The notes beneath the pieces were generated by a model that had not been told where the DNA came from, did not search any database, and saw only the letters and a program-made list of their open reading frames with translations. A stretch of DNA of 49,022 bases, taken from assembly GCA_945890745.1 (NCBI GenBank), contig CAMDCW010000003.1, forward strand, positions 1 to 49,022. The letters run 5' to 3'. Positions 33,001 to 37,578 of this stretch are shown here, in pieces (the stretch's first letter is position 1; each line of letters opens with the position of its first letter). Origin of the DNA: Phycisphaera mikurensis NBRC 102666 (GTDB lineage Bacteria > Planctomycetota > Phycisphaerae > Phycisphaerales > SM1A02). The position numbers were made by a program, and so were the translations under genes.

Positions 33001-34061
33001 TCGAAGTGGTATCGGATGCGGGTGACGTCCTTGCTGCTGGCGATGACATTGCCGCGCTGCGACGATCGTTGGCTCCCAAGGCGGCGGCGCATCGCGAAGG
33101 ACTGTTAGAGCGAGCCTTTCATCGCCATTGGAACCGCGTTGGATTGCGCACCTTTGATCTGGACGAACTTCCAGAGCGCATCGAAGCCACCGTTGACGGA
33201 CTGCGGGTCATTGCATGGCCGATGTTGGTGGATAGCGGTGATTCCGTCTCGCTTGGACTCGCCGCCGATCCAGAAGCAGCGGAACGCGCCACGCGCCTCG
33301 CCATGCGCACGCTGCATTCCATTGCGGCTCGTGATGCCATTCGACATCACTTGGAATACGCATCTGGATTCCAGGAATTGCTGATGACGTGGATTGCATC
33401 AACGCAGCTTGGCCGTGAGCCACTGATGGCTGCGCTGGTTTCTGCTGTAGCAGGGCGCGCGTTTGTCGATGATCGCCCCATCGTGCGCACGCCCGCTGAA
33501 TTTGAAACGCGGGTCGATCAGGGTGCGGCTGTCCTCAGTACTGCCGTGCAGGAGGTGGTTCGTGCGGCACTGGCGTTGCACACCCGGTCGGTGGAGGTTC
33601 TTGAAGCCATCGATGGTCCAACCCCAACGTCATGGTGTGCGGCAGTGGATGACATCACTCGGCAGCGCAAGCGGTTGGCTGCGCCCGACGCCTTGGCGCG
33701 CATTCCGTGGCAAGATGTTCAGCATCTGATTCGCTATGTGGCAGCGCTCGGTTTGCGTGCTCGCAAGTTGCGCACGTCTGGACCGGAGCGTGATGCAGTG
33801 TCCATGATGGAAGTGGCGCGCTGGGAGGATGAAATGTCCCGAGCTGAGGCGGCGTTGGCAGCCGAGGGGCGGGGCACCGCGGCTATCGCGCCGTTTCGGA
33901 TGCTTCTTGAGGAATACCGGGTCAGCCTGTTTGCCCAAGAACTACGAACGTCCATTCCAATCAGCGCCGAGCGCTTGGAGCGGGCGTGGCGCGATCGCGG
34001 TCAGGTTGTCCAGCAGCCAAGCAGCAATCCAAGGTCAGCGCCGTTCACCACGCCGTCGTGA
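30069..34061 (+). CDS. hrpA: ATP-dependent RNA helicase HrpA (DEAH box)
   Basis: VSGDTGSGKTTQLPKICLEAG, VDEAHERSLNIDFLLGYL, ASATID, VVDTGIARI, QRKGRCGRVGPG; 1330 aa. GTG start at 30069 may be too far upstream. Confidence 0.94.
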   Translation: MGRIQTYNPFAVLERIRRLQELIAGCPAQEQPVFRRRVAGLTRGAARQEPSESAVSALERDIVRSTERRAARAQRVPPVTYPDDLPVAQARDRIRDALLSHQVVIVSGDTGSGKTTQLPKICLEAGRGVDGLITMTQPRRIAARSVAARIAAELQTTLGGTVGFKVRFDDRTSEHSLVRVVTDGVLLAEIERDPLLLRSDTVIVDEAHERSLNIDFLLGYLKRLLPKRPDLKVIVASATIDVDRFSEHFGNAPVVQVDGRLHPIETRWRPLDDEASDSSPAERAVKGVEECLDSGPGDILVFLSGERDIQDAADALSRVPAARGVEVLPLYARLPVAEQDRVFHVGRSRRIILATNVAETSVTVPGIRFVVDTGIARIARWSGRTRVLRLPVEPIARASADQRKGRCGRVGPGVCIRLYSEEDFLAREPFTAPELLRTNLANVILQMKALGLGEIAQFPFLETPSPRLVAEGLETLAELGAVDRRGDLTALGKRMATLPVDPRLARTVLAAIDEGALAEGLVIAAALSIQDPRERPAGHGGAADFAQLIFRDQESDFLSLLKLWRRWRTESAALGSSALRRWCREHFISHQRMREWAELHEQLRSMVSERLGMRAAPLADACDANRIHRAMLAGFVSQLGFRGEDGEYRTATGGRFAIFPGSTLARRTPNWVVAAEIVETSRRFGRTLARVQGDWVERIAPHLVERIRSEPHWVRATGQVAAWERVQFGELTIVPRRRVPWGPVQPEDARNIFIQCALVDGDCDLDAPFIKHNHALRLRIEAMEAKRRERGLLVDSEARFAFFDARVPADVHSIPSFERWRRRVESRDSRTLFMRESDLLASTPDADMSMRFPDAIDIGGGASAELRYELSPGTALDGIHARIALGDLGSTTTDRLEWLVPGLLAEKIEALIRTLPKRLRVRLFPLREVAEAAAESIPFAEGSILESVAAHLAKVAGMALTAGDFDRAQLPPHLRLHIEVVSDAGDVLAAGDDIAALRRSLAPKAAAHREGLLERAFHRHWNRVGLRTFDLDELPERIEATVDGLRVIAWPMLVDSGDSVSLGLAADPEAAERATRLAMRTLHSIAARDAIRHHLEYASGFQELLMTWIASTQLGREPLMAALVSAVAGRAFVDDRPIVRTPAEFETRVDQGAAVLSTAVQEVVRAALALHTRSVEVLEAIDGPTPTSWCAAVDDITRQRKRLAAPDALARIPWQDVQHLIRYVAALGLRARKLRTSGPERDAVSMMEVARWEDEMSRAEAALAAEGRGTAAIAPFRMLLEEYRVSLFAQELRTSIPISAERLERAWRDRGQVVQQPSSNPRSAPFTTPS

Positions 34062-35563
34062 TTCAGGTCAAACGGCGAGCCATTCGCAGGCCCCCATGCT
34101 CCGAGCAGTAGACCAAGGTCGGCACCCGTCACGACTCCGTCGCCGTTGAGGTCGCCGCACACCGAGGGCAGTCCCAAGGATCCGTCCGCGTTCAACCGTG
34201 CGCCCACAATATCCGTCACGCCAACAGCGCCAGACTCCCAGATAGCGTGCACTCCGGCCGGCGTGCCAGAAGCGGCCATGAACACCGTGCGACCAACAAA
34301 GCCAACACCCGTCATCACCACGGGACTGGCCCAGCGTGGTGTGCCAAGCGCGTCGTAGGAATAGGCGCGAGCCGTCTGTGATCCGTATGCCGGAGAACGC
34401 ACCGACGAGAACGTTGGGAACTCACCCAGCATGGCAACCCGAGCCTGGGTTTCTTCATAGGTGGTATCGGTTGGCGAGAAGTTCACGCCGATATCGCCCC
34501 AGAGTCGCGTTCCGTCTTCAGAAAAACTCTGTCCGCCCGAGCCGTAGATACTGGAGTTCGGGACGTGCTCGTTCCACGCCACGTAGACGCGTCGCAGTGT
34601 TGGGTCATACGCCGCGGTGGGCGCCACGCGCTCTAGGTTGGTGGCGGCAGTCACGCCGGCACCGTTGGTTCCAAAGCGAAGCGCGCCAGTTGGCGAGACC
34701 CATTGTGCATAGCTTTGCAGCGGTCCGGTGCCGTACCAAGAGAAGATCGCTCCGCCTTCACCATCAGCGATGAACGATGGAAAGTTGCCAAATTGCAGTG
34801 ATCCAGTGGTAAATACCCGAACGTTGGTTGCCACCCATTGCGCAGCGCCAGTGGAGGAGAACTTCTGAGCTTGGATGGTCTTTGCGCCACTGAAGGTGGT
34901 GTAGCGAACGACTGAAGCAATGACGCTGCCGCCATCGCCTGGTTGCAAGTCCGACAGAAAGGTTGTTGCCGTGCCATCGGAAATGGTGGCGGGAGTCGCC
35001 CATGCAGCGGTGCCCTCCGGTGTCAGGCGCATGACTTTGGCTCTGCTGCTTTCGGTCCAACCTGCAACGGCTGCACCGTCACCAGCACGTCCGGCTTTGG
35101 GTGCATTCACTGCACTGCTCGCTGAAAGAGTGACGCCGGTGGCGCCCCACAGCAACACGCCTGACGGAGACACCGCCTGCGCAATGATCTTGGTCCCGCC
35201 GATGTCGCTCCGTGTCACGATGACTGCGTTGCCAGCAGCATCTGAAGTCAGACCGTAATCCTCGGTGCTACTAAAGTTGGTGTCGAGCACGCGGACGCCC
35301 TTGTTGGGCCATAGGCCGATCCCGTTGGCGTCGTACCGCTGCACCCACGGGTCATAGCCGCCGGTACTGTTGTCGTACCAGCTCATGTAGAAGCCGCCGG
35401 TGGGGATATTCACCACCTTGGACTGCACTTGGTCATTGGTTCCAGCGGCAAGCACGTCCGGCGTGTTGGGATCCGTGGTGAATTGCGCCACGGCGTTTGC
35501 ACACGCCACGCACATCGCAAAGGTGGCTGCCACGGCGCGCGTCTTGACGTTGGAAGAGGTCAT
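34001..35563 (-). CDS. Secreted protein with C-terminal dockerin-type repeats
   Basis: Signal peptide (MTSSNVKTRAVAATFAMCVACANAVAQ), repetitive beta-type body, C-terminus CGDLNGDGVVTGADLGLLLGAWGPANGSPFDLNHDGVVNGADLGLLLGCWTT. Confidence 0.78.
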   Translation of the reverse strand: MTSSNVKTRAVAATFAMCVACANAVAQFTTDPNTPDVLAAGTNDQVQSKVVNIPTGGFYMSWYDNSTGGYDPWVQRYDANGIGLWPNKGVRVLDTNFSSTEDYGLTSDAAGNAVIVTRSDIGGTKIIAQAVSPSGVLLWGATGVTLSASSAVNAPKAGRAGDGAAVAGWTESSRAKVMRLTPEGTAAWATPATISDGTATTFLSDLQPGDGGSVIASVVRYTTFSGAKTIQAQKFSSTGAAQWVATNVRVFTTGSLQFGNFPSFIADGEGGAIFSWYGTGPLQSYAQWVSPTGALRFGTNGAGVTAATNLERVAPTAAYDPTLRRVYVAWNEHVPNSSIYGSGGQSFSEDGTRLWGDIGVNFSPTDTTYEETQARVAMLGEFPTFSSVRSPAYGSQTARAYSYDALGTPRWASPVVMTGVGFVGRTVFMAASGTPAGVHAIWESGAVGVTDIVGARLNADGSLGLPSVCGDLNGDGVVTGADLGLLLGAWGPANGSPFDLNHDGVVNGADLGLLLGCWTT

Positions 35564-35618: not shown

Positions 35619-35647
35619 TTGACACACAAATAAATGGGACATATCCA
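35619..35647 (+). promoter_or_regulatory. Sigma70-type promoter candidate for an intergenic RNA
   Basis: TTGACA (35619-35624), 17-nt spacer, TATCCA (35642-35647). Confidence 0.6.
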
Positions 35648-35654
35648 CCACATT

Positions 35655-35785
35655 TACGCCCGATAGTCCTTGCGCGGACTCGCAAACCACGGCACTCTTA
35701 CAACTGCCTGAAAGGGCAGCAGCGAGTCCGAGGAGCGGGGCTCCCACGTGGGGTGGGGCCCGGCACCCGGGCTCGCAGCATTTTT
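35655..35785 (+). ncRNA. Candidate structured non-coding RNA (~130 nt)
   Basis: Between the promoter above and an intrinsic terminator; 9-bp helix cggactcgc (35675-35683) with gcgagtccg (35722-35730); inner hairpin CUGCCU-GAAA-GGGCAG (35704-35719); GGAGC-GGG-GCUCC (35732-35744). No plausible ORF. Confidence 0.55.
35756..35785 (+). terminator. Intrinsic terminator of the candidate ncRNA
   Basis: GCCCGG-CAC-CCGGGC stem (35758-35772) followed within ~8 nt by TTTTT (35781-35785). Confidence 0.65.
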
Positions 35786-35829
35786 AGACCAACGTCGAAT
35801 GTACAGCGGCTTTCCAGAATTCGTCAGGC

Positions 35830-37578
35830 TTACCCGTGCAGTTTGCGGTCTTCTCGTTCCTCTTCGCGCACTGCGCGCGTAACACCACGGCGGGTTCGCC
35901 AGATGTCCCAGATCAATCCGACGGAGAGGAAACCAGCAAGTAGGAATCCAACCAGTCCAATGGTTCCCACCATGCTTGCAGTATCGCCATGGGCGGCATG
36001 CAGCAGGACTGAGCTGGCAACAAGCAATGCGCTGATGAGTAGCGCATAGGCAACCGTGGTTGCCATGTGCTCCACGGTCATCCGGAATCGCTCAATACCT
36101 TCGAAGTGGAAATTGATCTTCGCTTCGCCAAGCCGAATCTTTCGCAGAATGCCAGTGATCTGCTTGGGCAGCGAATCGATGAGCTCCGCATAGGAGAACA
36201 GCGTGTTGGTAAATCGTTTGGTCAGTGCCTTGGGCGAGTAGCGGTCGTTCACCAACTTATAGATGAACGGCTTCGCTGCATCGATGATTTCGTAGTCGGG
36301 CTCAATGTCGCGCGCGACACCTTCAATGGTTCCCATCGCCTTAATGAGAAGCACCATGTCCGCCGGGCAGCGCACCTTGTAATCACGCAGGATTTGATAG
36401 AACTTATCAAGCACCGCAGCAATGTCAATTTCTGCGATCGGCTTGCCGACAAATTGATCCACCACCTCTTGCACATCGTCAAGTAGGGCGCGCTCGTCAA
36501 TGGAATCGGGCTCCACATTGCCCATGCGCATGGCGGCGCGCATGACCATGCGGGCATCGCCAGTGGCCACGCCGAAGACCAGTTCTGCAATTCGCTGCCG
36601 TGCGTCGGCGCCAATGCGACCAACCATGCCGCAGTCGATGAATGTCACACGACCATCGTCATGGATGAAGATATTGCCGGGGTGCGGATCCGCATGGAAG
36701 AAGCCCAGTTCGAGCGTCTGCCGGAACACCGCCCGCGCGCCGTTGGCAACGATCTTCTTGCGAATATCAAGAGGAATCGACGCGTACGGAGTGCGCGCTA
36801 GCAACTTGCCTTGGATCTTCTCAATGGTCAGAACACCAGTGGTGGTTGCTTCCCAATACACCTTCGGGAAGCTAATGCCTGGGTCACTCGCAAACGCATT
36901 TCGCATGCGGTCGGTGCTGCGGGCTTCAATAGTAAGGTTGGTCTCGCGGCGCAGTTCCTCGCGGAATTCAGCCACAATTTCCATCGGGCTGAAGCCCGTC
37001 TTTGCCAAGCGCTCCTCAGTGAGTCGGGCGACAAAGGCAAGCGCCTCCATGTCAGCCTCAATCTGATCAGCTGCATCCGGGCGCAGCAACTTGATCACCA
37101 CCTCTGAACCATCCTTCCAGATGGCACTGTGCACTTGCGCCATGCTGGCAGCAGCAAGCGGCTCGGGATCGATCCACTGGAACAGGTCGTCGGTTCGGCC
37201 CTTCAGTTGTTCATCGAGTGCGGCACGCACGCGGTCGAAGGGGATCTTCGGGCAGTCAGCCTGCAGCCGCGCAAACTCGTCAGCCAGTGCATCCGGAATC
37301 AGATCGCGGCGCGTGGAAAGAATCTGCCCGATCTTGATGAAGGTTGGCCCAAGTTCTTCCATCGCCTTGCGCAAGCGCACCTCAATCGGCGCGGAGGACA
37401 GGTCGATCGTTCCGTCGCGGCTGTACAACCAGTCCGCATTGGCCTTCCGAAGCGGCGAGAAGCCACTCTTGGAGATGAACGTTGCAAACCCATAACGAGC
37501 GAGTACCCCAATGACTTCACGGTACCTCTGTGCATTCTTGAGGCGTCTAGTGAGTGGGATGTCCATGACATTCGGCAT
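35830..37578 (-). CDS. ubiB: ABC1/UbiB/AarF family protein kinase-like
   Basis: LGPTFIKIGQILSTRRDLIPDALADEFARLQ, AAASMAQVHSA, FHADPHPGNIFIHDDGRVTFIDCGMVGR. Confidence 0.92.
   Translation of the reverse strand: MPNVMDIPLTRRLKNAQRYREVIGVLARYGFATFISKSGFSPLRKANADWLYSRDGTIDLSSAPIEVRLRKAMEELGPTFIKIGQILSTRRDLIPDALADEFARLQADCPKIPFDRVRAALDEQLKGRTDDLFQWIDPEPLAAASMAQVHSAIWKDGSEVVIKLLRPDAADQIEADMEALAFVARLTEERLAKTGFSPMEIVAEFREELRRETNLTIEARSTDRMRNAFASDPGISFPKVYWEATTTGVLTIEKIQGKLLARTPYASIPLDIRKKIVANGARAVFRQTLELGFFHADPHPGNIFIHDDGRVTFIDCGMVGRIGADARQRIAELVFGVATGDARMVMRAAMRMGNVEPDSIDERALLDDVQEVVDQFVGKPIAEIDIAAVLDKFYQILRDYKVRCPADMVLLIKAMGTIEGVARDIEPDYEIIDAAKPFIYKLVNDRYSPKALTKRFTNTLFSYAELIDSLPKQITGILRKIRLGEAKINFHFEGIERFRMTVEHMATTVAYALLISALLVASSVLLHAAHGDTASMVGTIGLVGFLLAGFLSVGLIWDIWRTRRGVTRAVREEEREDRKLHG

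Follow-up and report, generated by a model that had tools for sequence, protein, structure and literature searches.

A conserved plus-strand hairpin with an invariant tip marks a putative stand-alone small RNA gene in one planctomycete genus

Locus and gene neighbourhood

The window (the whole 49,022-nt stretch of DNA analysed) derives from a freshwater planctomycete and holds a putative RNA gene between two minus-strand genes. The divergent neighbour (34001–35563, − strand; start at 35563 set by homology) encodes a secreted protein with a dockerin type I domain (Pfam PF00404, synteny), while the convergent neighbour (35830–37578, − strand) is identified as the gene of an ABC1/UbiB-type kinase, ubiB (Pfam PF03109, synteny). 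The order hrpA (+), dockerin gene (−), RNA (+), ubiB (−) is common to the orthologues, with hrpA lying convergently beyond the dockerin gene wherever the contig extends to it. As ubiB is convergent and the dockerin gene divergent, no plus-strand gene lies downstream of the RNA, and the same-strand downstream gene expected of a cis-riboswitch or attenuator is absent. The RNA is present in one copy in the source genome.

The sequence elements listed for this interval by a first-pass annotation, made from the sequence alone, are accurate in letters and position, including TTGACA (35619–35624), TATCCA (35642–35647), TTTTT (35781–35785) and three complementary arms, cggactcgc (35675–35683), gcgagtccg (35722–35730) and cgggctcgc (35768–35776). 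The predicted fold of the interval is more stable than those of 200 of 200 dinucleotide shuffles (z −3.8).

Distribution within the genus

The orthologues, first found by DNA search, all belong to the same genus. The RNA is carried by 10 genomes of one uncultured Phycisphaerales genus, always at the same syntenic place; this number includes the genome of the window, so that the comparison set consists of the window and nine orthologues, and seven of the ten genomes are close to one another. The orthologue records are mostly planctomycete metagenome-assembled genomes (MAGs), including Lake Baikal and Lake Pavin isolates and Phycisphaerales UBA966. One public MAG titled Chitinophaga pinensis (CALQCP020000193.1) bears the planctomycete RNA locus and is apparently a mislabelled bin.

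A covariance model built from the ten orthologues recovered the same ten and no other substantial match in 181 genomes of the family, a search which uses stricter filters beyond 40 genomes and may thus miss weak matches. A single weak match beyond the genus (G104, 21 bits) falls within a dus-like gene, does not contain the tip of the hairpin described below, and is attributed to chance. The tip pattern, searched in GTDB and across the class, gave outside the genus just isolated tip-sized matches with no rod around them, and the regions downstream of ubiB in 11 genomes from other genera contained no relative of the RNA. Within the scope of these searches, the RNA family appears to be restricted to one genus.

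The congener G007 has the same gene order and both neighbours, with no RNA between them; its short intergenic region (contig C10, about 1380–1500) represents a natural deletion. In the ubiB tree G007 groups with G005 inside the genus, and loss of the RNA is thus the simpler account. The RNA is therefore dispensable, and neither neighbour has it as an obligatory cis-element. Three further members (G001, G004 and G013), whose assemblies are incomplete, gave no match to the RNA; in them ubiB has no match either (G004, G013) or is represented by its first part alone (G001).

The rod hairpin and its strand

The central feature of the interval is a GC-rich rod hairpin (35722–35776, + strand), whose 22 pairs are interrupted at four places by small internal irregularities, identified by comparison of the 10 genomes. 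Over the 10 sequences 96.4% of the rod cells are paired, a percentage that is biased if taken alone, since the structure was derived partly from the same sequences; stronger evidence comes from the five rod pairs that have changed on both sides. The covariation score of the rod was reached by none of 500 shuffles, and slid controls fell far below it. The helix 35722–35730/35768–35776 has 9 of 9 pairs in nine of the ten genomes; the tenth (L021) has 5 of 9 as aligned, and forms ACGGGCC/GGCCCGU when realigned by eye.

An A-C cell on the plus strand corresponds to a G-U pair on the minus strand. Across the 10 genomes the rod contains 13 G-U cells on the plus strand versus 2 A-C cells, and the functional strand is therefore taken to be the plus strand. 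A uridine tract (35781–35785, + strand; TTTT or TTTTT in 10 of 10 genomes, on the plus strand only) follows the rod, so that a hairpin followed by at least four T residues, typical of an intrinsic terminator, is present in all ten genomes. The location of every case between the same two minus-strand genes would also suit a minus-strand cis-element, either the 5′ leader of the dockerin gene or the 3′ end of the ubiB mRNA; this is improbable, as the G-U asymmetry and the U tract, present on one side only, point to the plus strand and both genes persist in G007 without the RNA.

The invariant tip

The apex of the rod is CUCCCACGUGGGGUGGGG (35741–35758, + strand), with the stem CCCAC/GUGGG, the loop GUGGG and the palindrome CCCACGUGGG. 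All 18 positions are invariant in the seven close genomes, and conservation over the ten is 0.98; the RNA consensus CUCYCACGUGGGGUGG is essentially invariant, while the flanks and the upstream spacer diverge. Terminator function needs no such sequence. A coding explanation was discarded, as the tip is invariant at every codon position and the rod of one orthologue (L010) carries, by inspection, a 1-nt insertion.

The palindrome is a perfect 10-bp one and is unchanged or one base off in the orthologues, which could also be explained if CCCACGTGGG were a regulator site acting at the DNA level and the hairpin incidental. This explanation is given very little weight, since the compensatory RNA pairs around the palindrome, the G-U asymmetry and the U tract all point to RNA. 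A homodimer of the RNA is predicted at −115.4 versus −109.4 kcal/mol, a modest gain.

Probable promoter and transcript

The promoter initially suggested (TTGACA-17-TATCCA) is not conserved, the TTGACA column reading, for example, TCGAGA, TCGCCG, TCGACG or TCCTTG in relatives. A different pair of hexamers probably represents the real promoter of the RNA gene: TTGCGC (35670–35675, + strand) as the probable −35 element, and CACTCT (35693–35698, + strand) as the probable −10 element. The first reads TTGCGC or TTGCGT at the same column in nine of ten genomes, its core being unchanged across the seven close ones, while L009 deviates with a shifted TTGCAT; the second reads CACTCT, CAATCT, CACCCT or CACCAT in relatives. 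By inspection, L009 fits TTGCAT-N16-TATGGT and L021 fits TTGCGC-N17-CACCAT. The hexamers are conserved at fixed spacing, yet match the sigma-70 consensus only weakly; the SRP RNA genes of the genus carry TAccAT or TAggAT at the place matching CACTCT. Between the hexamers lies a hypervariable 17-nt spacer (35676–35692, + strand), with a mean conservation of 0.67 versus 0.98–1.0 in the rod and flanking block and with no indels in the seven close genomes.

This spacer holds most of the arm 35675–35683, which had been proposed to pair with 35722–35730 and thus to compete with the rod helix 35722–35730/35768–35776 in a conformational switch. The window sequence permits both pairings, and of the two helices the rod helix is indeed conserved with covariation. 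The other is perfect (9 of 9 pairs) in the window, falls to 3–6 of 9 pairs in the nine orthologues and is retained in none of them; no column of the arm is invariant across the seven close genomes, and forcing its helix costs about 6 kcal/mol (−58.8 vs −65.0). If TTGCGC and CACTCT are the −35 and −10 elements, the arm would moreover lie within the promoter and be untranscribed. Of 2000 mononucleotide shuffles of the interval, 88 (about 4%) contain a perfect inverted repeat of 9 bp, and the match in the window is thus unremarkable. As far as the compared sequences can tell, the switch is refuted as a conserved mechanism, its likelihood being negligible, and the complementarity is a coincidence of one genome.

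Promoter-to-terminator distance and conservation suggest a transcript of ~82 nt (35704–35785, + strand). Its 5′ end would carry a small hairpin, CUGCCU-GAAA-GGGCAG (35704–35719, + strand), which most of the seven close genomes have, which is missing in L009, L010 and L021, and which shows no both-sides changes. Directly 5′ of the probable −35 element, the block ACGCCCGATAGTCC (35656–35669) is near-invariant in the seven close genomes and lost in the three distant ones; it may be part of the promoter of the divergent dockerin gene. The consensus fold suggests that an upstream GCCC block pairs with GGGC, a pairing in which almost nothing varies, and the transcript may therefore be longer, starting near 35655.

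Proposed function

The best explanation, with a probability of about 0.6, is a stand-alone plus-strand small RNA gene with its own promoter and terminator, probably acting in trans via the tip. The earlier proposal of such a gene with its own terminator agrees with the conserved rod covariation, the G-U asymmetry, the hairpin and U tract, and the absence of a matching Rfam family. The comparison itself gives a structured plus-strand RNA whose 3′ end resembles a terminator and whose tip is invariant, whereas the promoter, the ~82-nt length and the trans action are inferred; the sample is small, comprising ten genomes of one genus, seven of them close. Transcription would start at about 35704 from TTGCGC-N17-CACTCT, pass the small 5′ hairpin and the long GC-rich rod, and stop at the U tract of the rod, the rod, U tract and strand in this scheme coming from the comparison. 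The rod would serve both as terminator and as a scaffold displaying the tip (CUCYCAC-GUGGG-GUGGG), which would most likely be the active part, either through pairing of its G-rich loop with C-rich mRNA stretches or through protein binding by the tip.

The main rival is a plain intrinsic terminator with no RNA gene of its own, which would stop plus-strand antisense read-through from hrpA via the dockerin gene before it reaches ubiB. The strong plus-strand hairpin with its U tract and the order of hrpA, dockerin gene, hairpin and ubiB, conserved wherever the contig extends, agree with this, but the invariant 16-nt tip and loop and the conserved hexamers at fixed spacing are left unexplained and the congener G007 does without the hairpin, so that a plain terminator is considered rather unlikely.

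If the small RNA gene is accepted, it may represent a new family of a known kind of molecule. A tentative further reading, somewhat doubtful at present, is a new genus-specific family of regulatory RNAs in planctomycetes without detected Hfq. Its active part would be the invariant tip of the terminator hairpin itself, where the G-rich loop GUGGG adjoins the palindrome CCCACGUGGG, and it would act by loop-mRNA pairing, protein binding or loop-loop dimerisation. In a search of 17 relatives, Hfq gave no match in this genus or in six genomes from its order, while the control genomes matched; pairing in trans would thus need another helper or none. No paper on such small RNAs in Phycisphaerae was found in the open literature. 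A single-copy RNA that is backed by comparison and has an invariant hairpin tip, in hosts without detected Hfq, provides a starting point for small RNA biology there, and the fate of the proposed switch illustrates that a striking complementarity in one genome can disappear once genomes are compared.

Comparison with known RNA classes

Rfam searches at gathering and relaxed thresholds gave chance matches below the cut-off, and no family was assigned. A likeness to 6S RNA (RF00013), an RNA polymerase-binding template for pRNA synthesis, had been suggested, and both are stable rod-like stand-alone RNAs. However, 6S RNA is ~180 nt long versus ~80 nt here and has a closing stem, a large central bubble and a terminal stem, whereas the present RNA forms one unbroken rod whose irregularities are single bases; the RF00013 model does not match it at either threshold. 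A separate 6S candidate occurs in the congener G003 (contig C13, 49634–49816; 38 bits, below the curated cut-off), which has the present RNA on contig C16. The Rfam 6S model finds nothing in other members of the genus, whose 6S RNA is probably too diverged for it. The bacterial small SRP RNA (RF00169) is likewise one rod hairpin of similar size, but its gene is separate, the sole RF00169 match in the source genome lying on another contig (C69, 3984–4080). As the SRP RNA gene of this genome and the 6S candidate of a congener that also carries the present RNA both lie at other loci, the present RNA is neither of the two. It resembles most closely the intergenic trans-acting small RNAs, sharing with them promoter-like hexamers, a length of ~80 nt, a 3′ hairpin-U-tract terminator, no following gene and no conserved reading frame, and differs from this general class in that no Hfq was found in its genus and in that the sequence which is conserved, and presumably active, is carried by the tip of the terminator rod instead of by a single-stranded seed.
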